Shown here: piece by piece, positions 7,089 through 39,584 of the stretch | Layout of the letters: every line of letters begins with the position of its first letter | How positions within the stretch are numbered: the first letter of the stretch is position 1 | DNA from: Lacrimispora celerecrescens | GTDB lineage: Bacteria > Bacillota > Clostridia > Lachnospirales > Lachnospiraceae | Assembly (NCBI RefSeq): GCF_000732605.1 | Contig: NZ_JPME01000037.1 | Coordinates: 1-54,689 of the forward strand | Direction of reading: 5' to 3' | DNA: 54,689 nucleotides | Notes under the pieces: generated by a model | The model's input: the letters and a program-made list of their open reading frames with translations, nothing else | Told to the model about the DNA's origin: nothing | Databases searched by the model: none | Made by a program: the position numbers and the translations under genes

Positions 7089-9743
7089 ATGGCTGGATTA
7101 TCACCAATGATGGCTCATTACATGGAAACAAAGAAGGAATACCCGGACTGTATCTTGTTTTACAGGCTGGGAGACTTTTACGAAATGTTTTTTGAAGATG
7201 CGGTTACCGTATCAAGAGAGCTGGAAATCACCTTAACCGGAAAAGAATGCGGACTGGAGGAACGGGCACCTATGTGCGGTGTTCCCTATCATGCCGTTGA
7301 TACATATTTAAACCGTCTTGTTCAGAAAGGCTTTAAAGTTGCCATTGCCGAACAGATGGAAGACCCCAGGCTTGCCAAGGGACTGGTAAAGCGTGAGGTT
7401 ATTCGTGTGGTAACACCTGGAACCATCACAAGCGCACAGGCTCTTGATGAAACAAAGAATAATTACCTGATGGGAATCGTCTATATCGGTGAAACCTTTG
7501 GAATCGCAGTAGCGGATATCAGCACCGGCGATTTTCTTGTAACGGAGGTAGAATCGGAGCGGGAACTAATGGATGAGATCAATAAGTTTACCCCCTCTGA
7601 AATCATCTGCAACGAAGCATTTTATGTTTCTGGAGTGGATGTGGAAGAAATAAAGAACCGTCACCATGCGGTTATTTCATCTCTGGATCATCATTTCTTT
7701 TCCGATGAAGTCTGCCGGAAAATTCTAAAAGAACACTTCAAGGTAGGCGCACTCACAGGACTCGGGCTGGAAGATTATGACACCGGAGTCATAGCTGCCG
7801 GGGCAGTTATGGAGTACATGTACGAGACCCAGAAAAACAGCCTATCCCATATAACCACCATCACTCCTTATTCCACCGGGCAGTTCATGATTATTGACAC
7901 TTCTACCAGACGGAATCTGGAGCTTTTGGAGACCTTAAGGGAAAAGCAGAAGCGGGGAAGCCTTCTCTGGGTTCTGGACCGGACGAAAACAGCCATGGGC
8001 GCCAGAATGCTTCGTACCTACATAGAGCAGCCTTTGATTCATAAATCAGAGATCATAAAACGTCAGAACGCCATTGAAGAGCTGAATATGAATTTCATAT
8101 CAAGGGAAGAGATCTGTGAATATTTAAACCCGATTTATGACCTGGAGCGTCTTATCGGAAGAATCAGTTATAAGACAGCCAATCCAAGAGATATGATCGC
8201 ATTTAAAAGCTCCCTGGAAATGCTTCCGCACATCAAGAATCTCTTAGCAGAATTCACCAGTGACATGCTAAAGGACTTGTGGGGGGAACTGGATCCCTTA
8301 GAGGATGTCAGGGAATTGATTGACCGTGCCATTATTGACGATCCGCCTATTACCTTAAGGGACGGCGGGATCATTAAGGATGGTTTTCATGAAGAAGCCG
8401 ACAAGCTGAGAAGTGCCAAAACAGAGGGAAAAAACTGGCTTGCTGACTTGGAATTACGGGAAAAAGAAAAAACAGGGATCAAAAACCTGAAAGTAAAATT
8501 TAATAAGGTATTCGGCTATTATTTTGAAGTGACCAATTCCTTTAAGGATCTTGTGCCCGATTACTTTATCCGTAAACAGACTCTTGCCAATGCAGAGCGC
8601 TATACCACAGACGAGTTAAAGGAACTTGAAAATGTAATACTGGGAGCTGAGGACAAGCTGTTTTCTCTGGAATACAGTTTATTTTGTCAGGTCCGGGATT
8701 CGGTGGCAGACCAGGTTCTCCGGATACAGAAGACTGCCAGGGCTATAGCAGGGATCGATGTCCTGGCCTCCTTATCCTCTGTTGCCACAAGGAACAACTA
8801 TGTAAAGCCCCAGGTTAATGAAAAGGGACTGATCGATATTAAGAACGGACGCCATCCGGTAGTGGAAAAAATGATGCGGGATGATCTGTTTGTTTCCAAT
8901 GATACTTATCTGGACAACGGGAAAAACCGGGTTTCCATTATCACCGGCCCAAACATGGCAGGAAAGTCTACCTACATGCGCCAGACTGCGTTAATTGTTC
9001 TGATGGCCCAAATCGGAAGCTTTGTTCCTGCAGAGGAAGCAAGCATTGGAATCTGCGACCGGATTTTCACCCGGGTAGGTGCATCCGATGATCTGGCTTC
9101 CGGCCAGAGTACTTTTATGGTGGAGATGACGGAGGTTGCCAACATCCTTCGGAACGCCACAAAAAACAGTTTGATTGTCTTAGATGAAATCGGCCGCGGC
9201 ACCAGCACCTTTGACGGACTCAGCATTGCCTGGGCTGTGGTAGAGCACATCAGTAATCCGAAGATCCTGGGAGCAAAAACCTTGTTTGCGACACACTATC
9301 ATGAGTTGACCGAACTGGAAGGAACCATGAGCGGTGTAAATAATTACTGCATCGCAGTAAAAGAACAGGGCGATGACATTGTTTTCTTAAGAAAGATTAT
9401 AAAGGGCGGAGCCGATAAAAGCTACGGCATACAGGTGGCAAAGCTGGCCGGCGTCCCGGACTCCGTCATTATCAGGGCCAAGGAGCTGTTGGAAGAATTA
9501 AGGGATGCAGACATCACAGCCAAAGCCCGGGAAATTGCCGAAATCAACGCCAATATCACCCAAAGAAAGGCTGTTCCAAAGCCCGACGAAGTGGATTTAC
9601 AGCAGATGTCCATCTTTGATACTGTAAAGGATGATGATATCATCAAGGAATTGGGTGATTTAGAGCTGGGGAATATGACTCCCATTGACGCGCTCAATAC
9701 CCTGTACCGTTTGCAGACAAAGCTAAAGAACCGTTGGCAGTAG
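7089..9743 (+). CDS. mutS: DNA mismatch repair protein MutS
   Basis: This 884-residue protein recognises mismatches and small loops and then recruits MutL in an ATP-dependent way. The mismatch-reading Phe-Tyr-Glu is at residues 30-32 (GDFYEMF). The ATPase domain holds Walker A GPNMAGKST (620-628), Walker B around D699 (VLDEIGRGTS) and the downstream FATHYHELTEL. The C-terminal end (LYRLQTKLK) is the usual dimerisation helix. Length and order are typical of MutS1, not MutS2. mutL follows after 91 nt of repeat-containing leader, so both are probably on one transcript. Confidence 0.97.
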   Translation: MAGLSPMMAHYMETKKEYPDCILFYRLGDFYEMFFEDAVTVSRELEITLTGKECGLEERAPMCGVPYHAVDTYLNRLVQKGFKVAIAEQMEDPRLAKGLVKREVIRVVTPGTITSAQALDETKNNYLMGIVYIGETFGIAVADISTGDFLVTEVESERELMDEINKFTPSEIICNEAFYVSGVDVEEIKNRHHAVISSLDHHFFSDEVCRKILKEHFKVGALTGLGLEDYDTGVIAAGAVMEYMYETQKNSLSHITTITPYSTGQFMIIDTSTRRNLELLETLREKQKRGSLLWVLDRTKTAMGARMLRTYIEQPLIHKSEIIKRQNAIEELNMNFISREEICEYLNPIYDLERLIGRISYKTANPRDMIAFKSSLEMLPHIKNLLAEFTSDMLKDLWGELDPLEDVRELIDRAIIDDPPITLRDGGIIKDGFHEEADKLRSAKTEGKNWLADLELREKEKTGIKNLKVKFNKVFGYYFEVTNSFKDLVPDYFIRKQTLANAERYTTDELKELENVILGAEDKLFSLEYSLFCQVRDSVADQVLRIQKTARAIAGIDVLASLSSVATRNNYVKPQVNEKGLIDIKNGRHPVVEKMMRDDLFVSNDTYLDNGKNRVSIITGPNMAGKSTYMRQTALIVLMAQIGSFVPAEEASIGICDRIFTRVGASDDLASGQSTFMVEMTEVANILRNATKNSLIVLDEIGRGTSTFDGLSIAWAVVEHISNPKILGAKTLFATHYHELTELEGTMSGVNNYCIAVKEQGDDIVFLRKIIKGGADKSYGIQVAKLAGVPDSVIIRAKELLEELRDADITAKAREIAEINANITQRKAVPKPDEVDLQQMSIFDTVKDDDIIKELGDLELGNMTPIDALNTLYRLQTKLKNRWQ

Positions 9744-16810: not shown

Positions 16811-19666
16811 TGACTTGTTTGACATTATAAAAGAATTCTTTAAAAAAACAATATCATCACGGCTTTTTATACTTGGAATCATCTGCTTTTTCATGTATGC
16901 CGGATTAATTAATAAACTTTTCATCATGCAGATCGTTAATGGAGAAGAGGCTCTTAACGAATACTTACAGCTTACGGAACAAACGATTACAACCGCCGGA
17001 ACAAGAGGCAATATCTATGACCGGAACGGCAAGGTCCTGGCTTATAACAAGCTGGCTTATTCCGTTACCGTACAGGATACCGGAGCATACAAGAATTCAA
17101 ACTCCAGAAATAACATGTATTTAAGGTTAGTGCAGATCCTTGAAAAGCACGGGGAAACCATACAGGGGAAATTTGAAGTCGCCATTGATCCCAACGGAGA
17201 CATTGTTTACACCTCCTCCACCGAGCCTCCAGAAAGCGCTTTCTGCGGGACTATTATGGTCTGAAGAAGGTAGAAGAATTAGATGATGAAAAAGGCGCCT
17301 ATCCCTCTAATTTAAACGCAAGGGAGCTGTTTGAGAAGGCCTGCAAGGACAATGGTCTCACAGATATGAAAGATCAGGACGGAAAGCCCGTTACCCTGAC
17401 AGACCAGGAAGCCCTGGATATTATCAATATCAAATATGCCCTTCGCCTCATGTCCTACCGCAAATACGAAGCCACCACGGTTGCCAGCCAGGTAGCCGAT
17501 GAAACCGTAGCGGATATTTTAGAGCATATTGGGGACATGCAGGGAGTGAATGTAGAGGAAACCACAATCCGTGCTTATAATGACAGCATTTCCTTAGCTC
17601 CTGTCGTCGGTTATACCGGAAAGGTACCGGAGGACCAGCTGGAGGGCCTTCAAAAGAGGAAAGACGATTACGACATCAATGACATCGTAGGACGGGCTGG
17701 AATTGAATATACGATGGAGCATGAGCTTCAGGGAACAAAAGGGAAAAAAACGATTTATAAAGACAGTGTAGGACGAATACGCGAAACGAAAGATGAAACC
17801 GATGCTACTGCTGGAAATGATGTGTATCTGACTCTGGATGCAGATCTTCAAAAAGGCATTTACCACCTGATCGAACAGTCTTTAGCCGGAGTTCTCATTA
17901 AGACCATTGTAAACAGTGATTACCGTACCAGTGGCTCTACCGATGGTTCCAATATGAAGATACCTGTTAAGGATGCCTATTACCAGCTGATTAACAACAA
18001 TGTCCTTTCCCTGAAGGAAATGGAAGGGGAGGACGCTTCTGAAACCGAAAAAAACATATACCGGAAATATATGTCTTCCCAACAGCAGATTTTTACCAGT
18101 CTTAACAATGAACTGATGAGCACCCATGCCACATCTATGAAGGATCTTTCGGAAGACATGAAAGCCTATATGTTTTATATCTATACTTATCTTTCCGGTC
18201 CTACCGTGGGAATTATCAAGGAAGATGCCATTGATACCTCCAGCGCAGAATATCAGGCTTGGAAAGCGGATGAAATCAGCTTAAGAGACTATCTGTATTA
18301 TGGAATAGCCAATGGCTGGGTGGATACAACCAAGCTGGGAACCAGTTCCAAATATTCAAATGCGGATGACACCTTTGAAGCCCTTGTGGCTTATTCTCTG
18401 GACAAGCTAAAGGATGACCGGAACTTTACAAAAAAGATATACCGGTATCTGATTAATGACGATGTCATTACTGGGCAGGAACTTTGCCTTGCGTTATATG
18501 ATCAGGGAGTTTTAACAGACAACGGACAGGATGCCGCAGAACTGAGAGCAACAGGAGATGCTTACACCTTCCTGATTAAAAAGCTGTCATCTCTGGAGAT
18601 TACCCCTGCCCAGCTGGCATTATCCCCCTGTAACGCAGGAGTAGTTGTTACAAACGACAAAACAGGAGAGGTGCTTGCGCTGGTATCCTATCCTGGATAT
18701 GACAACAACAGGATTGGTGACGGAACCTATTTCAGCCAGCTGCAGGCGGACTTGTCCCTTCCGCTATACAACAATGCAACCCAGACAAGAAAAGCGCCTG
18801 GTTCCACCTTCAAACCCATTACTGCAGTGGCCGCTCTGGAAGAGCATGTCGTCACAATGGATGAATCGATTACCTGTACCGGTATTTATACAGATGTAGA
18901 ACCGCCCATTAAGTGCTGGATCTATCCAGGCCAGCATGGCCCTCTGAACATTGTAGGAGGAATTGGGAACTCCTGTAACTATTTCTTTGCTGATCTGGGA
19001 CACCGCTTGTCAATGGATGCCAATGGAGTATATTCTCCTGATCTGGGACTTGATGTACTGCGAAAATACGCAACGATGTTCGGCTTGGATCACAAGTCTG
19101 GAGTGGAGATCGCAGAGCTTGATCCCCAGATTTCAAAAGAAGCGCCGGAGCGTTCTGCCATGGGACAGGGAAGCCACGCTTACACAAATGTACAGCTGTC
19201 CAGATATGTAGCTGCCATTGCAAACCGGGGAACCGTATTTGAACTCAGCTTATTGGACAAGACAACAGATTCTGAAGGCAATCTGATACAAGATTATACC
19301 CCTAAGATTTCTTCTCATATTGACGCGGCGGCTTCAACGTGGGATACTGTACAACAGGGAATGAGAGAGGTGATTGCAAACGGTTCAAGTAAAAGGCTGT
19401 TTACCGACCTTGAAGTGGAAATTGCTGCTAAGACCGGTACTGCACAAGAGGCCCGTAACAAGCCTAATCACGCATTCTTTATTTCTTATGCGCCATATGA
19501 CAATCCGGAAATTTGTGTTACCGTGAATATTCCGTATGGCTATTCATCATCCAACGCCGCCAATATTGCGAAGAACGTCTATAAGTATTATTACGGCTAT
19601 ACGGACTTAGAATCCATTATAAATGCCGGTGCCCTGGATGCAGCGAAGGTCAACATTCGCGATTAA
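16791..19666 (+). pseudogene. mrdA: Penicillin-binding protein 2 (MrdA-type transpeptidase), broken by a 1-nt frameshift
   Basis: The first 147 codons give the cytoplasmic start, the membrane anchor (about 22-45) and the GTRGNIYDRNGK motif. The frame is lost near 17232, and the plus-one-base frame continues with KRFLRDYYGLKK and runs to 19666. Restoring one A in the run at 17233-17235 (GAAAG to GAAAAG) rejoins a 958-residue protein. All transpeptidase motifs then stand: S672-x-x-K675 (GSTFKP), S728-C-N730 and K881TG. A long insert before the catalytic domain is usual for clostridial class B PBP2. Being essential for elongation in most rods, it is probably intact in the living cell. The GTG start overlaps mreD. 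Confidence 0.88.
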
Positions 19667-19683
19667 CTAGGATAAGAGGTGAT

Positions 19684-20352
19684 ATGATGCATAATACCGT
19701 AGTAATTAAAAGCAACAGAGCAGGTATGACTGTCATCCTGGACCCAGACACCCCCTTCCCTCAGCTCCTTTCTGATATTGGGAAAAAATTCGGGGATCAT
19801 GCGAAATTCTGGGGATCCGCACAAATGACCCTGACCCTGGAGGGTAGGGAACTGAATTCCGAGGAAGAGTTCGCAATCATCAACCAGATCACAGAAAACT
19901 CCAATGTGGAGATCATCTGCCTGGTTGATACGGATATAAACCGTATGGAGCGCTGCGAAAAAGCACTGAACGAGAAACTCATGGAGCTGTCCTGTCAGAC
20001 AGGGCAGTTCTTCAAAGGCAATCTACAAAGCGGAGAGACTTTGGAATCCGAAGCCAGCATTGTTATCATCGGAGATGTATGCAAAGGTGCAAAGGTTTTG
20101 GCAAAGGGCAATGTGATCGTTCTTGGTAAGCTTTCCGGAACGGTATGTGCAGGTGTGGCAGGCAACCGGGGAGCGCTCATTACCGCCCTTGATATGGCAC
20201 CGATCCAGCTGCGCATCGCAGATTGTACCTCAGGCCTTGACGGAAGAGGAAAGCGGCTGGGAAGAGGTCCTATGAAGGCTTATATGGAAAATAACAAGGT
20301 TATAATCAAACCAATGAAAAAAAGTGTGGAAATATTCCAAAAACTAAGGTAG
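19684..20352 (+). CDS. minC: Septum site-determining protein MinC
   Basis: A 222-residue FtsZ assembly inhibitor. The N-terminal half (1-100) carries the FtsZ-interacting domain. The C-terminal half is the glycine-rich beta-helix that binds MinD (GDVCKGAKVLAKGNVIVLGKL, GALITALDMAPIQLRIAD). The start follows AAGAGGTGAT; an ATG 3 nt later is an alternative. minD follows after 43 nt. Together with MinD and MinE it places the septum at midcell. Confidence 0.92.
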   Translation: MMHNTVVIKSNRAGMTVILDPDTPFPQLLSDIGKKFGDHAKFWGSAQMTLTLEGRELNSEEEFAIINQITENSNVEIICLVDTDINRMERCEKALNEKLMELSCQTGQFFKGNLQSGETLESEASIVIIGDVCKGAKVLAKGNVIVLGKLSGTVCAGVAGNRGALITALDMAPIQLRIADCTSGLDGRGKRLGRGPMKAYMENNKVIIKPMKKSVEIFQKLR

Positions 20353-20395
20353 AATATAAAAAGGAAGTCATCCCTAAAAATCAGGAGGATATGGT

Positions 20396-21187
20396 ATGAG
20401 CGAGATTATCGTAATCACTTCTGGAAAAGGCGGGGTAGGCAAGACAACAACCTCTGCCAATGTTGGTACCGGACTGGCGATTCTGGGTAAAAAAGTAGTT
20501 CTGATCGATACAGATATAGGACTTCGGAACCTGGACGTTGTTATGGGTCTGGAAAACCGCATTGTCTACAATTTAGTAGACGTGGTAGAGGGCAACTGCC
20601 GTATGAAGCAGGCCCTGATAAAAGACAAAAGATACCCAAACTTATTTTTACTTCCCTCAGCACAGACCAGGGACAAGACGGCAGTCACTCCCGAACAAAT
20701 GGTAAAGCTTGTTGATGATTTACGGGAAGAGTTTGATTACATCCTGCTGGATTGTCCCGCAGGCATTGAACAAGGCTTTCAAAACGCCATTGCAGGCGCT
20801 GACAGAGCCATTGTTGTTACCACTCCGGAGGTTTCTGCTATCCGGGATGCAGACCGGATCATCGGGCTTTTAGATGCCGCTGATATGGGAGCCATTGAAC
20901 TCATCGTAAACCGGATCCGTGCGGATATGGTGAAAAGAGGAGACATGATGTCTTTGGATGATGTCATGGACATCCTTGCCGTTGATATTATCGGCGCTGT
21001 GCCGGATGACGAGGATATCGTCATTTCCACAAACCAGGGAGAACCTCTGGTAGGTATGGGAACTCCGGCCGGACAAGCCTATATGGATATCTGCAGGCGG
21101 ATTACCGGGGAAAACGTACCGCTGCAAAATCCGGCAGTGCGTGAAGGCCTTTTCTTTAAACTCTCCCATCTACTAAAGAGAGCATAG
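20396..21187 (+). CDS. minD: Septum site-determining ATPase MinD
   Basis: A 263-residue membrane-associated ParA-type ATPase that recruits MinC and is displaced by MinE. The deviant Walker A is SGKGGVGKTTT, with the signature lysine K11 and K16. Other signatures are VVLIDTDIGLRNLDVVMGLE and DYILLDCPAGIE. The C-terminal amphipathic membrane-targeting helix is visible as FFKLSHLLKRA. AGGAGG precedes the start. Length and order (minC-minD-minE) are standard. Confidence 0.96.
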   Translation: MSEIIVITSGKGGVGKTTTSANVGTGLAILGKKVVLIDTDIGLRNLDVVMGLENRIVYNLVDVVEGNCRMKQALIKDKRYPNLFLLPSAQTRDKTAVTPEQMVKLVDDLREEFDYILLDCPAGIEQGFQNAIAGADRAIVVTTPEVSAIRDADRIIGLLDAADMGAIELIVNRIRADMVKRGDMMSLDDVMDILAVDIIGAVPDDEDIVISTNQGEPLVGMGTPAGQAYMDICRRITGENVPLQNPAVREGLFFKLSHLLKRA

Positions 21188-28721: not shown

Positions 28722-29240
28722 ATGAATCAAAAAATAAAACTGATCATCGGGATGATCATCGGCTTCTTTCTTTCCATTGGCTTAGATCAATGGACAAAGC
28801 TTCTTGTTGTTAAGCATCTCATGGACCGGCCTCCGTTTGTGATCTGGAATGGAGTGTTTGAACTTTATTATTCCGAAAACCGGGGGGCAGCATTTGGAAT
28901 GCTTCAGGGTAAACAGGCATTTTTCCTGCTGGTCGCTTTGGTAGTACTGTCAGTAGCAGCGTTTTCTGTCAGCCGTATGCCTGCAGACAGAAAATACCTA
29001 CCCCTGCACCTTATTGCCATGTTTCTTTCGGCGGGAGCGGTAGGAAACATGATCGACCGCTTTACCAGAGGCTATGTGGTAGACTTTTTATATTTTAAAC
29101 TGATCGATTTTCCGATTTTTAATGTTGCAGACTGTTACGTCACGATTTCCATGTTCGTTTTTATGCTCCTGTTTCTGTTTTATTACAAAGAGGAGGACTT
29201 ATCCTGTCTTTCCCTTCATAAAAAGGAGGAGCTGGGTTGA
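28722..29240 (+). CDS. lspA: Lipoprotein signal peptidase (signal peptidase II)
   Basis: A 172-residue aspartyl protease with four membrane spans that cleaves prolipoprotein signal peptides. The catalytic aspartates lie in the two diagnostic motifs, GNMIDRFTRGYVVDF and FNVADCYVTI. The N-terminal QWTKLLV and ENRGAAFGML are also typical. It overlaps the rluD start by 4 nt, a conserved lspA-rluD arrangement in Firmicutes. Substrates in this window include the carboxypeptidase and the ABC solute-binding protein. Confidence 0.95.
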   Translation: MNQKIKLIIGMIIGFFLSIGLDQWTKLLVVKHLMDRPPFVIWNGVFELYYSENRGAAFGMLQGKQAFFLLVALVVLSVAAFSVSRMPADRKYLPLHLIAMFLSAGAVGNMIDRFTRGYVVDFLYFKLIDFPIFNVADCYVTISMFVFMLLFLFYYKEEDLSCLSLHKKEELG

Positions 29241-30150
29241 GTCAAGAGTTTGTAGTCGCTCCTGAGGATGCCGGTGTCCGCATCGACCGGTATTTATCCG
29301 ACCAATGCCAGGATATTTCCCGTTCTTACCTTCAGAAGCTTTTAAAGGAAGAATCCGTGCTGGTTGAAGAAAAGCCGGTAAAAAGCAATTATAAAGTAAA
29401 TACAGGGGACCGGATTTCCCTGACCCTTCCTGAAATAAGGGAACCGGAAATCGTACCGGAGGATATCCCCCTTGATATTATCTATGAAGATAAGGATATC
29501 ATTCTCATTAATAAACCAAAGGGGATGGTGGTCCATCCTGCCGCAGGTCATTACAGCGGAACCCTGGTCAATGGGCTGATGTCTCATTGCCGCAGCGAGT
29601 TATCTGGAATAAATGGAGTTATGCGCCTGGGATCGTCCATCGAATTGACATGGATACCACCGGGGTTCTTATTGTATGTAAAAATGATATGGCTCACAAT
29701 TCTATTTCCCAGCAGCTGAAGGAACATTCCATTACCAGAAGATATGCTGCAATCGTACACGGAGTCTTAAAGGATGACGAGGGAACGATCAACGCTCCCA
29801 TAGGCCGTCATCCCATAGACCGGAAGAAAATGAGCATAAATGAAAAAAATGGAAGAGATGCAATAACCCATTACCGTGTCCTTGAGCGGTTTAGACAGTA
29901 TACCTATATAGAATGTCAGCTTGAAACAGGGCGGACCCATCAGATCAGAGTTCATATGGCAAGCACTGGCCATCCTCTTTTAGGAGACTCTGTCTATGGT
30001 CCTGCAAAGTGCCCATTCCGTCTTAACGGGCAGACCCTTCATGCCGGTGTATTGGGAATTATCCATCCCAGAACCGGTGAATATATGGAATTTTCAGCGC
30101 CTCTTCCTGACTATTTTGAAGAATTATTGAGAAAACTGCGGACAACTTAA
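29237..30150 (+). pseudogene. RluD-family 23S rRNA pseudouridine synthase, broken by a 1-nt frameshift
   Basis: The TTG start follows AAAAGGAGG at 7-nt spacing and overlaps the lspA stop. An N-terminal S4 RNA-binding domain (about 12-75) and INKPKGMVVHPAAGH of the catalytic domain lie in the first frame. The frame is lost near 29625, where ATGCGCCTGG would be ATGCGCCCTGG. The next frame then gives PGIVHRIDMDTTGVL with the catalytic aspartate, and GRTHQIRVHMASTGHPLLGD. The repaired protein is 304 residues, normal for RluD/YlyB. Loss of one C in a C run suggests a sequence error or a very recent mutation. Confidence 0.88.
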
Positions 30151-31006: not shown

Positions 31007-31035
31007 TTGACATTGCACATATCCTATGATATTGT
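31007..31035 (+). promoter_or_regulatory. Promoter of the yhf-like cluster
   Basis: A perfect -35 TTGACA (31007-31012) and -10 TATTGT (31030-31035) are separated by 17 bp. The repeated TACAAAATAATGTA element lies just downstream, over the likely transcription start. Confidence 0.7.
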
Positions 31036-31042
31036 GTGAATA

Positions 31043-31056
31043 TACAAAATAATGTA
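31043..31056 (+). promoter_or_regulatory. Candidate regulator site 1 of the yhf-like cluster
   Basis: TACAAAATAATGTA has palindromic ends (TACA/TGTA) and lies about 8 nt after the -10, a position suited to repression. The same 14-mer recurs at 32038. The adjacent gene encodes a GntR-type DNA-binding protein, the obvious candidate to bind it. Confidence 0.55.
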
Positions 31057-31079
31057 AATTGCAAAAAGTGAGAGAACTC

Positions 31080-32015
31080 ATGAAAAACAAACATTTAGAA
31101 GCAGGAAACCTATATCAAAAAATAGGCCTGGTTAAAAATCTGCTGGCACTGGATTTAATGTCCCGGAATGCGGGAGACCGGATTCTGCCCATCTCAGAGT
31201 ATCAGGATAAATTCGGGGTATCAAGGGGAACTATTCAGAACGCATTTGCCTGTTTAAAGGAATGTAAAGCAGTGACACTGGAGAATCATGGACATCAGGG
31301 AACCTGCATCAAAGAGATTGATTATAAGAAGCTGCAGGAAAACTGCATGCGCAAAGAAATTCTGGGAATCATGCCCCTTCCATATTCCGTGACTTATGAG
31401 GGGTTCGCCACGGCTATGTATACCCAATTTGCACCGCTTAACTTTAATATGGCTTATGCCAGAGGCGCAGTGGGACGTATTGATCTGGTAGAATCAGGAA
31501 CCTATCAATTTGCTATCTGCTCCCAGTACGCGGCAGAACAATCCATAAGAGAAGGAAAGCAGATTGAAGTTGCAATTAATTTCGGACCGGGCAGCTTCCT
31601 TTCCAGGCACGTGCTTCTTTTAGGGAATTCCAAATTTCATGGCATTCAGGATGGCATGCGGGTAGCATACGACAGCAGCTCCATTGACCAGAGCTGTATT
31701 ACCCAAAATATTATCCACGGTAAAAAGGTTACCCTGGTCCCGATCCGGACCCAGCAGACCGTAAGCGCCTTGATGGATGGTATGATAGATGCAGGAGTAT
31801 GGAACTATGACGATATCCTGGAGCATAAGTACGAACCACTGAATGTAGCCTTTTTAGATGAATCTGATTACAACAATCTGTTTTCGACGGCTGTTATGGT
31901 TATTAGAAAGGAGGATGAATATCTAAAGGCACTATTGGATAAGTATGTCAGCATACCGAAGGTTGTGGAGATTATCCGGGAGGTAAGGGAGAAAAAAAGA
32001 GAACCCTATTTCTAG
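31080..32015 (+). CDS. yhfZ: YhfZ-like GntR-type transcriptional regulator
   Basis: A 311-residue regulator. The N-terminal winged helix (about 20-80: GDRILPISEYQDKFGVSRGT, then an HGHQGT wing) is followed by a C-terminal domain (about 95-300) like a periplasmic-binding protein, with GIQDGMRVAYDSSSIDQ. This layout matches E. coli YhfZ. The ligand is unknown; the small-molecule-binding fold suggests it senses the cluster substrate. The ATG at 31080 is preferred over an in-frame TTG 21 nt upstream because it leaves GAGAG as binding site. It is followed by a second copy of its presumed site. Confidence 0.78.
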   Translation: MKNKHLEAGNLYQKIGLVKNLLALDLMSRNAGDRILPISEYQDKFGVSRGTIQNAFACLKECKAVTLENHGHQGTCIKEIDYKKLQENCMRKEILGIMPLPYSVTYEGFATAMYTQFAPLNFNMAYARGAVGRIDLVESGTYQFAICSQYAAEQSIREGKQIEVAINFGPGSFLSRHVLLLGNSKFHGIQDGMRVAYDSSSIDQSCITQNIIHGKKVTLVPIRTQQTVSALMDGMIDAGVWNYDDILEHKYEPLNVAFLDESDYNNLFSTAVMVIRKEDEYLKALLDKYVSIPKVVEIIREVREKKREPYF

Positions 32016-32037
32016 AAATTGTCTTTTTAGAGCAAAG

Positions 32038-32051
32038 TACAAAATAATGTA
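32038..32051 (+). promoter_or_regulatory. Candidate regulator site 2 of the yhf-like cluster
   Basis: A second exact TACAAAATAATGTA, here flanked by G and TATTG, lies between the regulator gene and the PRD gene. Both copies share about 17 of 20 bases including flanks. No strong promoter is seen beside it, so it could act on elongation or on a weak internal promoter. Confidence 0.5.
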
Positions 32052-32074
32052 TATTGAAACTGGGAGGGAATCCA

Positions 32075-32434
32075 ATGGATTTAAGAGATATTTTAAACCA
32101 GCGTCTGGATATTCTGGAGGAAAATCACGTGATTTGCAAAAAGGTTGCGGATTACTCCAGAAACATAGTGGACCGGATACTGGAAGAAAAGCCTGACGCA
32201 GAAGAGAATAAGGCAGCAATGTTCATCACTCATCTGGCCATGGCCGGACAAAGAGTTTTAGACGGGGTTGTAGAACACCCTCTGGATAACACGCTTCTCG
32301 ATGGGATAAAAAAGGAGCCGGTTTATCAAAGGGCGGAAATGTTAAAAGAGGAACTGTTAAAGGAAACAGATATCCAGTTCCCGGAAGCAGAGCGGAACTT
32401 TCTGACCGTTCATCTTTGCAATCTGCTTTCATAA
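32075..32434 (+). CDS. yhfY: YhfY-like single PRD-domain protein
   Basis: A 119-residue free-standing PTS regulation domain. The helical pattern matches one PRD, and a candidate phospho-histidine stands in MFITHLAMAGQR, with a second in NFLTVHLCNLL. It has no DNA- or RNA-binding domain, so it probably acts by protein contact, perhaps with the neighbouring GntR-type regulator or transporter. E. coli has the same pair (yhfY next to yhfZ). GGGAGG lies upstream of the ATG. It hints at control of this cluster by PTS phosphorylation state. Confidence 0.75.
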   Translation: MDLRDILNQRLDILEENHVICKKVADYSRNIVDRILEEKPDAEENKAAMFITHLAMAGQRVLDGVVEHPLDNTLLDGIKKEPVYQRAEMLKEELLKETDIQFPEAERNFLTVHLCNLLS

Positions 32435-32499
32435 TAAGGTATCATGGCCAATTGGCCTTTATTAAGCAATGATACAAGGATAAAAGGAGGATAGAAGCA

Positions 32500-32871
32500 A
32501 TGAAGATTGTGGTTGGTGGTCAGATTGACAAGGAAGAAATTGCCAGACTGGTAGCACTGCAGATGAACGGCAGGGCGGAGATCGAGATCAAGGGGGATCT
32601 AGATGCTGCACTTGGCGTGAAAAACGGAACGTATGATTATTATGTAGGTGCCTGCAATACTGGCGGCGGCGGAGCGCTGGCCATGGCTATGGCCATGCTG
32701 GGTTCCGGACTCTGTTCTACGATTTCCATGCCCGGAATGATAAAGAGCGGAGATTTTATCAGAGAAGAGGTACAAAAGGGGAAAAAAGCATACGGATTTA
32801 CAGCACAGCACAAAGAAGAGGTACTTCCGGTTCTGTTGCAGGCAATCATTGAGAAAGAGGAGGTTTCATAG
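32500..32871 (+). CDS. yhfU: YhfU-like DUF2620 protein
   Basis: A 123-residue protein matching DUF2620/YhfU. Its centre has a glycine-rich loop, GACNTGGGGALAMAMAMLG, followed by a hydrophobic run, which could bind a phosphate or act as a membrane-facing component. It starts MKIVVGGQIDKEEI behind AAAAGGAGG. It always seems to travel with YhfT; a role as a cytoplasmic transporter subunit is an inference. The 65-nt gap before it holds a hairpin (GTATCAT/ATGATAC with GGCCAATTGGCC inside). Confidence 0.75.
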   Translation: MKIVVGGQIDKEEIARLVALQMNGRAEIEIKGDLDAALGVKNGTYDYYVGACNTGGGGALAMAMAMLGSGLCSTISMPGMIKSGDFIREEVQKGKKAYGFTAQHKEEVLPVLLQAIIEKEEVS

Positions 32872-32873
32872 GT

Positions 32874-34184
32874 ATGAAATACATAGTTATTGCATTAATC
32901 GGGGCATTGGCTTCTGTTTTATCCAATCAGGGGATTGCAGTTTTTAATGACGGTTTCCGGCCAATTGTGGGGCAGTATTTTAACGGAGAGATCAATCGAA
33001 AAGAATTAGCGGCCATGAGCTTTGCCATCAGCTTCGGCCTGGTCATCGGTTTTGGTATACCGACCTCCATTGCAGCAAGCATTATTTTGATCCACTGCCT
33101 GCTGCTGACTACTGATATCATCGGATCATTTTGTAATAACAGCAGAAACGGTATGATCCTATCCGCTGTCATCGGAGCCGCTTATGGCCTGGCGATTCTG
33201 GCTGGTTTAGAGTTTGTTGTAAAACTGTTCAGCTATATGCCATATAACTTCACCAGTGACTTAGGAAGCGTTTCCGGCTATATAACGGTTGCATTTGCCG
33301 TATTCCCGGCAGTGGGCATTGCTTACCAGCACGGCTTTAAAAAAGGCATGACCGCAGGAATCGTTACCCTGCTAGTCTATTTTCTTGTTAAAAAATTCGG
33401 TACCTTTACCATCGGTGCAGGCAAGGTTTCTTTAAATGCAGAGGGTATGGCAATGCTTGCAGGCATGATTATGATGATCGTCTATGCTGCACAGAAGAAA
33501 GGAACGGAACATACCAATGAAGGGCTGACCAAGGGCTTTGAGGGCAATATTTTACGTATTAGAAAAAATTGGCTGCTGTTAGCTATTATGGGCGGTCTGA
33601 TCGCAGCCGGAACCAGCCTTGCCATTATTGCCGGCGATCCTGCTTCCCTGGCTCTTTTGGCCAACCAGGAATACAGCAATGCCGGATTAACCGCACTGGC
33701 AAGAGCCATTGGCTTCATACCTCTGGTATTTACAACAGCCATTGTAACAGGCGTGTACGGCGCGGCCGGTTGTACCTTTGTATTTGTAGTCGGACTATTC
33801 CTTCATGGAAACCCGTTCTTTGCATTTATACTCGGATTTGCAGTTATGGTGGCAGAGATTTTCCTTATTAACATTTTTGCAAAATACATGGATAAATTCC
33901 CGGGAGTCAAAGATATGGGAGAGTATGTGAGAACCTCCATGAACAAGGTTCTGGAAATTTCCTTGCTCGCAGGCGGTATTGTTGCAGCAGAAAAAATGGC
34001 AGTTGCCTCTTCCGGATACACTGGAATCGGAGCACTGTTTGTAATCGGGGGCTTCCTGTTAAATAAGAAAGCGAAAAAACCGATTGTTGACCTGGCTGTT
34101 GGTCCTGTAGCATGTATCATTTTCGGAGTGCTGTTAAATCTGCTTCTCATCATAGGCCTTATTGCAGTCCCGGCAGCAAAGTAA
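32874..34184 (+). CDS. yhfT: YhfT-like membrane transporter
   Basis: A 436-residue integral membrane protein with about 11-12 hydrophobic segments, the size of E. coli YhfT. It starts 2 nt after the YhfU gene, so the two are likely made together. No known transporter signature is visible to me. By position it would import the compound processed by the downstream hydrolases and PLP enzymes. Confidence 0.8.
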   Translation: MKYIVIALIGALASVLSNQGIAVFNDGFRPIVGQYFNGEINRKELAAMSFAISFGLVIGFGIPTSIAASIILIHCLLLTTDIIGSFCNNSRNGMILSAVIGAAYGLAILAGLEFVVKLFSYMPYNFTSDLGSVSGYITVAFAVFPAVGIAYQHGFKKGMTAGIVTLLVYFLVKKFGTFTIGAGKVSLNAEGMAMLAGMIMMIVYAAQKKGTEHTNEGLTKGFEGNILRIRKNWLLLAIMGGLIAAGTSLAIIAGDPASLALLANQEYSNAGLTALARAIGFIPLVFTTAIVTGVYGAAGCTFVFVVGLFLHGNPFFAFILGFAVMVAEIFLINIFAKYMDKFPGVKDMGEYVRTSMNKVLEISLLAGGIVAAEKMAVASSGYTGIGALFVIGGFLLNKKAKKPIVDLAVGPVACIIFGVLLNLLLIIGLIAVPAAK

Positions 34185-34195
34185 CTGGAATTGAT

Positions 34196-35179
34196 ATGGA
34201 AAGACTTGAAACCTATGCAAAGAAAACATTTTTGGCACTTAAAAATCCCTATTGCACGGTAAACCAGGTAAATCCCCGCGTCATCGATCTGGTTGCTCCA
34301 TCTCTCGAAAAGCATGGGTTTGCCTGGTATACCGGAGTCAAGGATACTTCGGTCATACCAGGGGAGCTAAAAGAGCGCCTCAATGAAAATGGCTTTTTAT
34401 TTCATACAGCCGATAAAATGGCTCTTGGCGGAAGAGCGGTGGATTTACAGCTTATCAATCCCATTACCGGAAAATGGATGACCGGCTCCAGCAGCGGTAC
34501 GGCACTCAACGTATTCTATGGAATCAACGATGCCGGAATCGGAACAGACGGCGGCGGCAGTGTACTGGCACCTGCTGCTGCCCTCAACCTATATGGATTT
34601 ATCTCTCCATTAATCGAGCAGGAACATATGAAGCAATATGCAAAAACTTCTACGGATGGAATTGTATTTTCTCCCAGCCTTGGTACCATTACCAGAGATT
34701 TAAAGACCCTGGAACAGGTTCTAAATCCTTTGCTTGGAATTAATCTGAAAGAGGAATCCATGAATTGGGAGGACGGCCTGGAATGGAAAGAAGTTTCCAA
34801 TGAAAACCCGCCGGATATTTATGGGCACCGGGAACCATTGATCCAGTTCTTAAATCAGATCACGGGTCCGGGAACCATACTCATCTCAAAGGAAGGACCG
34901 GTGGATGTGAATGCCATGGGTGACAGCATTTACGGCCATTTTGATAAGGAGACAGAAACGTGCCAGGCTCGTTCGGGAAAAGGACTGATGCGGGTAGTCA
35001 ATATGTGCGGAAAATCCGCACTGACCATTCCGGCCAGTAAATTGGGGTGCTGTACCCTTCTGATCTGCGAAAGTAAAAAAGAAGACATTGAAGCAATGTT
35101 CCGAAAGGCCAGATTAATGGTCTGTCAAAGATCCCAGTTGATCGAGCGGTACTTTATGAATTTTGATATGTATTTCTAG
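34196..35179 (+). CDS. Compact amidase-signature protein in the yhf-like cluster
   Basis: A 327-residue protein with an amidase-signature core: TGSSSGTALNVFYG and GIGTDGGGSVLAPAA correspond to the GGSSGG and GTDTGGSIR blocks. A Ser-cisSer-Lys triad can be placed as K74 (ADKMALGG), S99 and S122. The spacing from serine to serine (23) is normal, but K74 lies only 25 residues before S99, against about 70 in usual amidases, so the region between is much shortened. The whole protein is also well below the usual 450-500 residues. The ATG at 34196 lies 11 nt after the transporter stop with a weak GGAA. It has no counterpart in the E. coli yhf operon. Substrate unknown. Confidence 0.7.
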   Translation: MERLETYAKKTFLALKNPYCTVNQVNPRVIDLVAPSLEKHGFAWYTGVKDTSVIPGELKERLNENGFLFHTADKMALGGRAVDLQLINPITGKWMTGSSSGTALNVFYGINDAGIGTDGGGSVLAPAAALNLYGFISPLIEQEHMKQYAKTSTDGIVFSPSLGTITRDLKTLEQVLNPLLGINLKEESMNWEDGLEWKEVSNENPPDIYGHREPLIQFLNQITGPGTILISKEGPVDVNAMGDSIYGHFDKETETCQARSGKGLMRVVNMCGKSALTIPASKLGCCTLLICESKKEDIEAMFRKARLMVCQRSQLIERYFMNFDMYF

Positions 35180-35238
35180 TGCATAATGACGGGGCAAATG
35201 TGAGAATTACTTCTCCCTTTGTCCCTTGGAGGCAAAAC

Positions 35239-36108
35239 ATGGAAAAAGGTTATACTTTGATGCATGAACACATTACCATAGACTTATCCGGGGTAAAAAA
35301 AGACCTGGATTGCCGGCTTGACTGCTTTGAGGAAACAAAAGCAGAGCTTTGCTCTCTGTATCAGCTTGGCGTCAGGCGCATTCTGGATGTGACGAATATG
35401 GGTATGGGAAGGAATCCGAAATACGTAAGCCGGATGGAAAAAGCCACCGGCATCCGGATCTTGCAGTCGACCGGTTTTTATAAAGAGCCGTTTCTTCCGG
35501 ACTTTGTTTATTCCATGTCTGAAATGGAACTTGCTGAACTTGCAGAAAAGGAATTGACGGAAGGAATTGGGGATTCCGGCATCAAAGCAAGGGTCATCGG
35601 AGAGTTTGGAACCAGCAAAAACATCATGACGGATATGGAAAAAAAGGTGTTTCATTCCATGGCTTTGGCAGCGGTGCGTACCGGTGCCGTAGTAACTACC
35701 CATACAACCCTTGGAACCATGGCTCTGGAACAGGCCGAATATTTAAAACAGGCCGGGGTTAAGCCGGAAAAGATCATTATCGGTCATTTAGACCTTTCCC
35801 AAGACCCGGATTATATTCTTTCGGTTCTGAAGGAAGGCGTCAATATCGGATTTGATACTGTGGGCAAAAATAATTACTGTCCGGACCAGTTCCGTGCAGA
35901 AACATTAAAACGAATCGCAAAAGAAGGTTTTCTGGGACAGGTGGTATTATCGATGGATATAACCAGAAAAACTCATTTAAAAGAGTGGGGAGGCTTAGGT
36001 TATACCTATTTGTTTGAGACCTTTCTTCCCATGCTTCGGGATTATGGTTTATCTGAGGAACAAATCGATATGCTGCTGATTAATAATCCGGACCGGATTC
36101 TGAAATAA
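35239..36108 (+). CDS. php: Php-like phosphotriesterase-homology amidohydrolase
   Basis: A 289-residue metal-dependent hydrolase of the phosphotriesterase-homology family, the size of E. coli Php (YhfV). Metal ligands are visible in order: H9 and H11 (MHEH), bridging E122 (GEFGTS), H155 (TTHTT), H183 (GHLD) and D240 (SMDITRK). Glu replaces the carboxylated lysine of true phosphotriesterase, as in Php. The ATG at 35239 is chosen because GGAGG lies 6 nt before it and the protein then begins EKGYTLMHEH; an upstream GTG would add 20 unlikely residues. True substrate unknown. Confidence 0.83.
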   Translation: MEKGYTLMHEHITIDLSGVKKDLDCRLDCFEETKAELCSLYQLGVRRILDVTNMGMGRNPKYVSRMEKATGIRILQSTGFYKEPFLPDFVYSMSEMELAELAEKELTEGIGDSGIKARVIGEFGTSKNIMTDMEKKVFHSMALAAVRTGAVVTTHTTLGTMALEQAEYLKQAGVKPEKIIIGHLDLSQDPDYILSVLKEGVNIGFDTVGKNNYCPDQFRAETLKRIAKEGFLGQVVLSMDITRKTHLKEWGGLGYTYLFETFLPMLRDYGLSEEQIDMLLINNPDRILK

Positions 36109-36121
36109 GGAGGAAGAACGT

Positions 36122-37216
36122 ATGCAGACTTATCCATTATCCAGCATCTCAGTAGAGGAGGCCGCCAGGCTGCAATTTAAAGTGATTGATTGTATCACAA
36201 AAACATTCAGCGGCCGCGAGATTTTAAACCGTGGAGATTTAGGGGTTGTTCCAGGTCTTAATAAGCCGTTAACCACAAAAAAGGCGGAACGGGTTATTGC
36301 GGATCTGTTTGATGGGGAAGCCTGTATCCTGGTGAGAGGCGCCGGAAGCGGAGCCATAAGATTGGGGCTCCATACCATATTAAAACCGACAGAAAAAATT
36401 CTGGTACACAAGGCACCTGTTTACAGTACGACTGCCACATCTTTAGAAATGTTATACATTTCGACGGTAGAGGCTGATTATAATGATCCGGACGATATAC
36501 GCCGGGTAATAAAAGAAAACAATGATATTAAGGGCGCTCTCATCCAATACACCAGGCAAAAGCCGGATGACCGCTATGACATGACCCAGGTGATAAAAAC
36601 AATTAAGGAATGCATTGATATTCCCATATTAACCGATGATAATTATGCCGCCATGAAAGTGAACCAGATTGGCATCCAGTGCGGAGCAGACCTTTCCTGT
36701 TTTTCTTCCTTTAAGCTGTTGGGCCCGGAAGGCGTAGGCATAATCGTTGGAAAAGCATGTTATATTGAAAAGCTAGTGAAAGAAAGTTATTCCGGAGGCA
36801 CCCAGGTCCAGGGGCATGAAGCCTTGGATGTACTTCATGGCCTTGCCTATGCGCCTGTGGCCTTAGCCATCCAGGCCCAGGTAAATGAAGTATGTGTAAA
36901 ACGGCTGAACGCAGGTGAGATCCCTAAAGTAAAGCAGGCATTTCTGGCAAATGCCCAGTCAAAAGTACTTTTGGTTGAGTTTTATGAGAACATTGCAGAA
37001 AAAGTCCTTAGGGAAGCCGAAAAGCTGGGAGCAGCACCGAATCCAGTGGGAGCAGAATCAAAATACGAACTGGTTCCCATGTTTTATCGGGTATCCGGTA
37101 CCTTCCGGAGTACGGATCCTACACTGGAAAGCCGTATGATCCGGATCAACCCCATGCGGTCCGGGGCGGATACCATTATGCATATTATAAAAGAAGCTGT
37201 AGAAAGAGTGATATAA
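36122..37216 (+). CDS. yhfS: YhfS-like PLP-dependent aminotransferase-fold protein
   Basis: A 364-residue fold-type I PLP enzyme like YhfS. The PLP lysine is probably K198 in SSFKLLGPEGVG, with a preceding ILTDDNYAA aspartate and a RGAGSGAIRLGLH phosphate-binding region. It could be an aminotransferase, lyase or selenocysteine-synthase-like enzyme; sequence alone does not decide. AAGGAGG precedes the start. It ends directly before the next gene with no gap. Confidence 0.8.
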   Translation: MQTYPLSSISVEEAARLQFKVIDCITKTFSGREILNRGDLGVVPGLNKPLTTKKAERVIADLFDGEACILVRGAGSGAIRLGLHTILKPTEKILVHKAPVYSTTATSLEMLYISTVEADYNDPDDIRRVIKENNDIKGALIQYTRQKPDDRYDMTQVIKTIKECIDIPILTDDNYAAMKVNQIGIQCGADLSCFSSFKLLGPEGVGIIVGKACYIEKLVKESYSGGTQVQGHEALDVLHGLAYAPVALAIQAQVNEVCVKRLNAGEIPKVKQAFLANAQSKVLLVEFYENIAEKVLREAEKLGAAPNPVGAESKYELVPMFYRVSGTFRSTDPTLESRMIRINPMRSGADTIMHIIKEAVERVI

Positions 37217-38374
37217 ATGTTTTTAGAGCAGACCTTAAAACGAAACCCGGAATTAATCAAAGCCTCCTTTGAGCTTCACCAGAGCGGGCAGATCCAGCCG
37301 GATTCTTATGTAATAGACGTGGATACCTTTCTGGATAATGCATCGCTTATGTTAAAAGAAGCAAAAGAAAAGGAGATCAGGCTGTTTTTTATGCTGAAAC
37401 AGGCCGGAAGAAATCCTTATCTGGCAAGGAAACTGGTGGAACTGGGCTACGAAGGGGCCGTTGTAGTGGATTATAAAGAAGCCAAAGTGATGATGGAGCA
37501 CCAGATCCCCATCGCAAACGTAGGACATCTGGTACAGATTCCTACTGCACAGGTGGAGGAGATCGTAGCATACCGTCCTCAGATGATCACGGTATATTCC
37601 GAAGAAAAAATCTGTCAGATCCATCAGGCAGCTAAGAAACTGGGGCTTTTTCAGGAGATCATTCTCCGTGTTACCAGCGATTCGGACATGATCTACTCAG
37701 GACAGACGGCAGGGTTCCATCTCGATGCGTTAAAAGATCTGGCAGAACGGATCAAAACACAGTATCCCTGTGTAAAAATCACAGGTGTCACATCTTTCCC
37801 CTGTTTTTTATATGAAGAAACAGCCCATGACCTGATCCCTACCAGGAATATGGATACCGTAAAACAGGCGGCTGAGATTTTAAAGGAGTGCGGATTCCAG
37901 GTAACCATCATCGATACACCTTCCGGTTCCTGTACCTACGCTCTGAATAAGATCAGAGAAATGGGAGGAAACTGCGCCGAGCCGGGCCATGGCCTATCCG
38001 GTACCACGCCCATGCATGCGGACCATGTGCTGGAGGAAATCCCTTGTGTTACTTATGTAAGTGAAATTTCTCACAATTTTAAAAAGCATGCCTATTGCTA
38101 CGGCGGCGGCCATTACCGGCGTTCCCACGTAAAATCAGCCCTGGTTGGAACTGCTTTTGACCATTTCACTGTAATGGAGGTTATTCCGCCTACCAATGAA
38201 AGCATTGATTATCATTTCGGCCTGACCGAAGAAGGGACGGTAGGAGATACTGTAATCATGGCATTCCGCTATCAAATCTTCGTTACCCGTTCGGATGTGG
38301 TGCTGTTGGAAGGGTTGAAAAAGAAGAAGCCGCAAATTGTTGGAATCTATGACAGCATGGGGAAAAAGTTATGA
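37217..38374 (+). CDS. yhfX: YhfX-like PLP enzyme (alanine-racemase N-terminal fold)
   Basis: A 385-residue PLP enzyme of the alanine racemase / D-threonine aldolase barrel type, matching YhfX. The PLP lysine is probably K61 in FFMLKQAGRNP. Other features are TGVTSFPCF, a Cys- and Gly-rich AEPGHGLSGTTP and the CYGGGHYRRSH stretch. Its ATG follows the YhfS stop with no gap, and its end overlaps the next start by 4 nt. Racemisation, epimerisation or aldol cleavage of an amino compound is plausible. Confidence 0.8.
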   Translation: MFLEQTLKRNPELIKASFELHQSGQIQPDSYVIDVDTFLDNASLMLKEAKEKEIRLFFMLKQAGRNPYLARKLVELGYEGAVVVDYKEAKVMMEHQIPIANVGHLVQIPTAQVEEIVAYRPQMITVYSEEKICQIHQAAKKLGLFQEIILRVTSDSDMIYSGQTAGFHLDALKDLAERIKTQYPCVKITGVTSFPCFLYEETAHDLIPTRNMDTVKQAAEILKECGFQVTIIDTPSGSCTYALNKIREMGGNCAEPGHGLSGTTPMHADHVLEEIPCVTYVSEISHNFKKHAYCYGGGHYRRSHVKSALVGTAFDHFTVMEVIPPTNESIDYHFGLTEEGTVGDTVIMAFRYQIFVTRSDVVLLEGLKKKKPQIVGIYDSMGKKL

Positions 38375-39584
38375 AAAAAAGATTGATTGTCATTGTTTTG
38401 GATGGATTCGGCATCGGAGCCATGGAAGATGCACGTCTTGCCAGGCCTGGAGATGAAAAGGCTAATACCTTAAGAAGCATTCTGAAGGACTACCCCGATC
38501 TAAAGCTCCCGACACTGGAAAAGCTGGGGCTTATGAATGCCTATGGAGAGGAAAGCACCTCCATGAAATTCTCACTTAAAGCAAATTTCGGAAGCTGCGG
38601 GCTCATGCATTATGGAGCAGACACGTTTATGGGCCACCAGGAAATTATGGGAACACTCCCGAAAAAACCGGAAGTCCATCCCTTCCAGGAAAAAGCAGAA
38701 GCAGTAAAAGTACATTTGGAGGCAAATGGACATCAGGTAAAAGTCATCGAACGGCAGGGGCTGCGCTATTTACTGGTAGACCAATACGTAACTGTAGCAG
38801 ATAATCTAGAAGCAGACTTGGGGATGTGCTATAACGTAACAGCTCCTTTGGATCTGATCTCCTTTGAAGAGGAATATGCCATAGCAAGAAAGGTTCGGGA
38901 AGTAGTAACCGTAGGCCGGGTAATTGTGTTTGGCGGAACCGGAAATACCATAGAAGACCTCTGGAATGCTGAAGAGGTGAAACAAGGCCGTTTCATCGGC
39001 ATTGCGTCTGCAAAATCCAAATCCTACGATCATGGCTACCAATGCAGGCACTTAGGCTATGGGGTGGATCAAAAGGTACAGGCCCCCACGATTCTGACAA
39101 ATGCAGGGTTTGACTGTACCTGATTGGAAAAGTAGCGGATATTGTATCCAATGATAAGGGACTGAGTATTTCCTGCGTGCCCACACAGGAAGTAATGGAC
39201 CTTACCTTCCGGGAAACAGAAGCCATAACTCAGGGCTTTTTATGTACCAATGTACAGGAAACGGACTTAGCCGGACATTCCCAGTCCACTATGACCTATA
39301 AAAAAATCCTGGAAATAGCAGATCAGGGAATCAGCAGACTTTTACCAGAGCTGACTGCCCAGGACATTCTGGTGATCATGGCCGACCATGGAAATGATCC
39401 CAATATCGGTCACAGTAAGCATACCAGGGAGCGTGTCCCGCTTCTTGTTTATAAAAAAGGAATAACAGGAAGAAACCTGGGAAAAAGAAAAACCCTCTCT
39501 GACATAGGTGCAACCGTTTGTGATTATTTTGGCACAGGCGCTCCGCAAAACGGAGAATCCTTCCTGCCGCTTTTAAAAGATTAA
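38371..39584 (+). pseudogene. yhfW: YhfW-like phosphopentomutase-family protein, broken by a 1-nt frameshift
   Basis: An alkaline-phosphatase-superfamily mutase. The first frame has VLDGFGIGAMEDA and the nucleophile threonine T85 in DTFMGHQEIMG, the same number as in Bacillus phosphopentomutase. The frame ends early at 39123. If one G is restored between 39114 and 39115 (GAC-GTG-TAC), it reads through as GFDVYLIGKVADIV and into the metal-binding part (MADHGNDPNIGHSKHTRERVP). The repaired protein is 404 residues. It resembles DeoB but sits in the yhf context, so another sugar- or amino-phosphate is likely the substrate. Confidence 0.82.

Follow-up and report, generated by a model that had tools for sequence, protein, structure and literature searches.

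The window analysed here, a 54,689-nt stretch of Lacrimispora celerecrescens DNA that makes up contig 37 of a 5.0-Mb assembly in 89 contigs, carries at 31007-39584 on the plus strand a promoter-like site followed by nine co-directional genes, yhfZ-yhfY-yhfU-yhfT-amidase-php-yhfS-yhfX-yhfW. According to our in silico analysis, these nine genes very probably form one co-regulated system. We propose that they encode a catabolic pathway under YhfZ control that dismantles an amide-linked conjugate, perhaps one of an amino sugar, and we give this whole chain a probability of roughly 0.3. Computation shows that the genes run in one direction, that their co-occurrence, amidase included, is constant, and that catalytic motifs as well as an operator-like site are conserved.

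Gene families were assigned with Pfam and NCBIfam profiles at curated cut-offs, yhfW being judged frame by frame, and all nine genes scored above a curated family cut-off. The regulator YhfZ reaches 365.4 bits with its equivalog NF041241 (cut-off 260) and the yhfY product 42 bits with the PRD profile (cut-off 23). YhfU matches the DUF2620 profile with 136 bits, YhfT its own profile with 488 bits, YhfS the YhfS-like_C profile with 152 bits and YhfX the YhfX-like_C profile with 124 bits. These results agree gene by gene with the families named in the original prediction, and they provide a profile match, yhfW in two frames, for each of the eight Escherichia coli yhf families, all running in one direction. 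The catabolic layout that it described is likewise supported. Two further terms need qualification. The cluster had been called complete, and all eight families are there, but the word fails as read because yhfW is frameshifted in the assembly and split in two frames. Tight packing applies from yhfU onward (intergenic gaps of 2, 11, -1, 13, 0 and -4 bases) and not to the first genes, since yhfZ and yhfY are 59 bases apart and yhfY and yhfU 65.

To survey the families across genomes, a YhfT alignment was scanned against one genome per species (84,980 species), which returned 381 relatives; the best 80 of these were analysed, and frames in their loci were labelled with profiles that took the window and E. 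coli proteins as seeds. Seventy-four loci, chosen by YhfT, with close relatives included and the window and E. coli left out, lay wholly within the fetched DNA. There the predicted co-occurrence was found for every partner: YhfU in all 74 loci, Php, YhfS and YhfW in 73 each, YhfX and YhfY in 72 each, YhfZ in 70 and the amidase in 61. We also drew an even phylum sample of 398 genomes, with E limits of 0.001 and 1e-10 for YhfT or amidase matches. YhfT was above the cut-off in 12 of them, and 12 stretches around matches of this sample were labelled likewise; a thirteenth match, in G202, is fragmentary (22.7 bits), and no gene around it received a label. Some loci are of unusual build. The L118 cluster reads Z-Y-U-T-S-X-W, lacks php and the amidase and has one stop inside yhfT. 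The Gallicola assembly of L056 is split: one contig carries U-T-amidase with Z, and a second (L138) begins the rest of the set with a single frame at 84-1322 that matches YhfY, the PRD protein, as well as Php, ahead of S, X and W.

The amidase had been presented as an extra gene. Our results showed that it is a regular member, present in 64 of the 80 YhfT loci (63 separate genes, 1 fused) and missing from 16. Nine genomes of the phylum sample contain it; each belongs to the 12 that have YhfT (Fisher p 3.5e-16), and by coordinates the two genes are at most 2 kb apart. The same 14 of 61 relatives carry both YhfT and amidase. A window-specific insertion was therefore rejected. Where a locus had no separate or fused copy, 15 genomes were searched for the amidase: 12 gave no match, the only match in L059's genome had an E value of 4e-4, L087's genome encodes an amidase away from the locus (a 359-residue frame), and L065's genome keeps a fragment interrupted by two stops, which would lie between T and P provided that the numbering of locus and contig is the same. 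The amidase is sometimes lost. Its position is not fixed either: it can follow T, P or W, or be divergent from U. When five members were compared across 63 loci, none varied as much as the amidase (mean identity 0.38, the others 0.49-0.59), and its distances correlate with those of the other members at 0.71-0.77.

The window protein (327 residues) matches the amidase profile PF01425 with 35 bits (cut-off 27) over 44 of 445 positions, and its nearest named proteins are from Lacrimispora, at 83-86% identity. All 64 aligned amidases (65 rows, with the window entered twice) conserve K49, S98, S99 and S122, which we take to be the Lys and Ser positions of the catalytic site. The Lys, Ser-Ser and nucleophile Ser motif is common to amidase-signature hydrolases such as the aryl acylamidase 4yj6 and GatA; the window-type amidase differs from them in being short, in having its own conserved motifs EGP-D and GD, and in being tied to YhfT. 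In the stretch aligned, the aryl acylamidases 4yj6 and 4yji differ at the last of these serines, Ser against Ala. The enzyme of the cluster looks active, and it perhaps acts early in the pathway. The earlier suggestion that it may cleave first would fit its frequent loss and the occurrence of one fused YhfT-amidase frame. This frame, at 10001-12307 of L031 from [Clostridium] citroniae, encodes 768 residues and, as a single case, may be an artefact.

Regulation was approached through a 14-mer, TACAAAATAATGTA, found directly after the promoter-like site and again before yhfY (Table 1). Genome G000 contains no exact copy besides these two. Eight genomes of the genus have 16 exact copies between them, of which coordinates place 15 at the yhf cluster, and no match to the reversed pattern; the remaining copy, in G006, is inside or beside unrelated frames. 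Within the window alone the exact operator is unremarkable, as two matches with no more than two mismatches each turn up in 23 of 100 shuffles. Across species, the gaps before yhfZ, yhfY or yhfU contain the general form TACA-N6-TGTA in 44 of 67 loci, where 0.7 would be expected, and 23 loci lack it. This count uses a fixed spacing and a first-order Markov model in place of earlier mononucleotide shuffles with a loose pattern, and it leaves out 21 loci that are near relatives or have no cluster. In many of the loci led by U, the candidate operator precedes U. YhfZ would be the natural reader of TACA-N6-TGTA. The TTGACA promoter of the original prediction is present as a site, TTGACA-17-TATTGT, but taken alone it is weak evidence, because the region contains 21 promoter-like sites against 15.7 expected in shuffles; two of them reach 10 of 12 matches. 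In the genome of L089, an operator-like 16-mer lies about 75 bases before a gene that by eye resembles an aldose 1-epimerase (L179, 378-1427), and this may be chance.

Table 1. Features of the yhf cluster, in window coordinates.
Feature	Position	Strand	Basis or remark
Promoter-like site TTGACA-17-TATTGT	31007..31035	+	10/12 matches, TG before second hexamer
Operator candidate 1, TACAAAATAATGTA	31043..31056	undefined	14-mer
yhfZ, regulator	31080..32015	+	frame open from TTG 31059; ATG 31080 preferred
Operator candidate 2, same 14-mer as candidate 1	32038..32051	undefined	upstream of yhfY
yhfY, single PRD domain protein	32075..32434	+	profile
yhfU, DUF2620, RpiB-like fold (predicted), invariant Cys52	32500..32871	+	profile, alignment, fold
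yhfT, presumed membrane carrier	32874..34184	+	profile
Amidase-signature protein, 327 aa, regular ninth member	34196..35179	+	profile, alignment
php, phosphotriesterase-family hydrolase	35179..36108	+	GTG start; later start possible
yhfS, fold-type I pyridoxal phosphate (PLP) enzyme	36122..37216	+	profile
yhfX, alanine-racemase-like PLP enzyme	37217..38374	+	profile
yhfW, first frame	38371..39123	+	frame scan, profile
yhfW, second frame after one-base shift near 39120	39177..39584	+	frame scan, profile

The two yhfW frames arise from a single one-base shift. With PRK12383 (cut-off 254) the first frame scores 347 bits and the second 204, and the second frame passes the PF01676 cut-off. The Lacrimispora-type loci L030, L039 and L040 carry yhfW as a single frame; in L029 it is split. 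The shift could mean that the operon of this particular genome is decaying and yhfW truly broken, a reading in keeping with the absence of the cluster from 11 of the 25 genomes of the genus searched. However, the other eight cluster genes are open, and a housekeeping-type neighbour, an rluD-like gene at 29237-30150, is also frameshifted (near 29630) and is one frame in relatives such as L040. Because a second frameshift hits this nearby gene, an assembly error is the likelier cause, and we regard decay as highly improbable.

YhfU had been read as part of an importer. Its model adopts the fold seen in RpiB sugar isomerases, an invariant YhfU cysteine falls on the catalytic RpiB Cys, and a role as importer subunit was set aside on the strength of this soluble fold. 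Foldseek returned only two matches at E 0.001. A single-sequence search of the PDB gave no match; the best match of the YhfU profile in the PDB was an RpiB-family chain at E 0.063, followed by a luciferase at E 0.35. With hhalign, E was 0.04 against a shallow RpiB alignment and 5e-4, at 31% probability, against a broader one. As the sequence matches are weak, the RpiB-like reading rests mainly on the fold. Cys52 is invariant in 48 rows and falls in register with the RpiB catalytic Cys in four comparisons, which are not independent. On the model, YhfU reads better as a soluble RpiB relative than as a transport subunit, and the chances that it is an isomerase appear evenly balanced. YhfT is the presumed membrane carrier, and its model showed no confident match to any solved fold; it might yet be a phosphotransferase-type permease with an EIIC fold. 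A phosphotransferase-type importer, with an EIIB-like YhfU phosphorylated on Cys52, YhfT as the permease and the PRD protein YhfY as the sensor, is unlikely.

The remaining enzymes frame the chemistry. Php matches PF02126 (PTE) with 244.7 bits and falls below the E. coli Php equivalog (NF007373, 304.9 bits, cut-off 486). H29, H31, E142, H175, H203 and D260, presumably metal ligands, are kept in at least 97% of 89 rows. Structures of YhfX, YhfS and the YhfZ domain are in the PDB. In the pathway that we propose, YhfT would import a polar conjugate, whose amide bond the amidase would cut near the membrane, and Php would open a further bond, that of a lactone, an ester or an amide. YhfX would then racemise or epimerise the amino-bearing carbon, and YhfS would remove or transfer the amino group. 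YhfU, with its RpiB fold, may interconvert aldose and ketose forms and YhfW shift phosphate within the product. The pathway would end in the phosphate of a sugar or amino sugar, which in some species would go on to an adjoining glucosamine 6-phosphate (GlcN6P) deaminase; in some species, too, a PBP4B-like hydrolase with a signal-like N-terminus might free the substrate outside. The suggested order is hydrolases (PBP4B-like in loci that have one, amidase, Php), then the PLP steps (YhfX, YhfS), then sugar-phosphate rearrangement (YhfU and YhfW, followed by NagB in loci that have it). YhfZ would act at its operator until an intermediate is bound, and YhfY would report the state of the phosphotransferase system (PTS).

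Of 177 candidate adjoining proteins 109 were scanned, 22 entries being left out of the list, and the commonest families were PF00144 (9), ABC_tran (5) and Glucosamine_iso (5). For three PF00144 neighbours the best-scoring model is PBP4B (221-273 bits, cut-off 385); the nagB cut-off is passed by four NagB neighbours. NagB adjoins yhfW in several lineages. The candidate operator precedes 4 of 12 neighbour genes (PF00144 members in L050, L055 and L097, NagB in L094), a count that has no separate control. The amide-linked substrate of the original prediction is plausible and is here sharpened, tentatively, to an amino-sugar/amino-acid conjugate with an amide link, for instance a fragment derived from the cell wall. 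Its phosphorylated sugar-like product is compatible with YhfW and the NagB neighbours. It is possible, though doubtful, that the whole is an undescribed route for an amide-linked and probably wall-derived amino-sugar conjugate, from PBP4B-like release through YhfT import, a membrane-coupled amidase, Php and two PLP steps to GlcN6P deaminase under one YhfZ operator, with YhfU a new RpiB-type isomerase and YhfW a non-pentose phosphomutase. Other genes were seen at single loci: an HPr-family phosphocarrier after yhfW on the same strand (L115, 16670-16999), a YdjC-like protein before the cluster of L071 (8399-9163) and PTS EIIA and EIICB genes with a second PRD match after it (17679-20503), and between yhfZ and yhfY of L054 a 257-residue protein that by eye resembles a tyrosine phosphatase (8403-9173).

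Several results weigh against the proposed pathway. PBP4B-like and NagB genes stand beside a minority of loci, and neither was seen beside the window cluster. The N-acetylmuramic acid (MurNAc) etherase was not among the ten window proteins or the top 25 neighbour families listed, a comparison made with no MurQ profile. The conserved set contains no kinase and no recognised PTS permease, so that the source of phosphate is unaccounted for. As 13 of the 74 full loci lack the amidase and L118 lacks both it and Php, neither hydrolase is indispensable. YhfX was not found in the 1.5-Mb genome of L060, whose locus is U-T-amidase only. The search for a distal regulon was negative: in 19 genomes the 16-mer has 11 sites off the clusters with no recurring gene, and its reversed control has 8 matches. 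For YhfU, the PF02502 profile gave no match (only DUF2620 was found, at E values up to 1), and there is no invariant His among the aligned proteins. RpiB uses His residues. Owing to these two points YhfU may not be an isomerase. In E. coli RpiB, Asp9-His10, to which with His99 we ascribe catalytic roles, aligns to a gap in YhfU; with the lack of an invariant His, this makes YhfU a relative rather than a member of RpiB. Compared with the RpiB and LacAB ketol-isomerases, then, YhfU has the same fold and the catalytic Cys in register but is shorter and lacks both the profile match and the His.

The same operon may instead handle a substrate other than an amino sugar, namely an amino acid or sugar acid in the form of an amide, ester or lactone, a possibility that we rate about as likely as the amino-sugar conjugate and, like it, short of even odds. 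YhfX and YhfS would then do the main chemistry and YhfW would act on another phosphate ester. Two hydrolases and two PLP enzymes make up the bulk of the set, Php scores with a phospho-furanose lactonase model (117.9 bits, cut-off 630), and the YhfW parts, scanned apart, lie far below the DeoB equivalog cut-off (TIGR01696, 54.5 and 80.6 against 341.2 bits); the scarcity of NagB and PBP4B-like neighbours points the same way. Against it stand the RpiB-like YhfU and the NagB genes beside yhfW in several lineages, once with the candidate operator.

The yhf operon belongs to the best-studied of all bacteria, and YhfX, YhfS and the domain of YhfZ have solved structures, yet our literature searches turned up no pathway assigned to it. 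Searches on the yhf names, the Pfam and PDB accessions and Php, in which few subscription journals were covered, found no study of a yhf pathway, of an amidase partner or of an RpiB-like DUF2620. In one paper, yhfZ is among the E. coli knockouts resistant to peptide N-104 (PMC12147183). Our genome comparison adds a ninth enzyme, recasts DUF2620 as probably RpiB-type, and gives a conserved candidate operator and two known-family neighbours that share it. An annotation gap is thereby turned into direct tests: the release of YhfZ from TACA-N6-TGTA, the target of the amidase, and whether YhfU is an isomerase.

Among known systems, the MurNAc utilisation operons (E. coli murQ-murP-yfeW; Bacillus subtilis murQRP-amiE-nagZ) resemble the proposed pathway in amide hydrolysis, in an amino-sugar phosphate end product and in the PBP4B-type hydrolase near some yhf loci, but the window cluster has no assigned murQ or murP counterpart and its core enzymes differ. 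The murQ-murP operon of E. coli includes the gene for PBP4B (PMC5061867). The E. coli K-12 yhfS-yhfZ operon (b3376-b3383) shares all eight families in one direction, and its YhfT is 36% identical. It differs in gene order (Z-Y-X-W-php-U-T-S) and in having no amidase gene at the locus, the only part of that genome examined; it offers no usable gap for the operator test. If the proposal is true, the E. coli operon would be an amidase-less branch of the same pathway. The eight-gene operon was already known from E. coli, and to it we add the regular amidase, the RpiB-like reading of DUF2620 and the conserved candidate operator.

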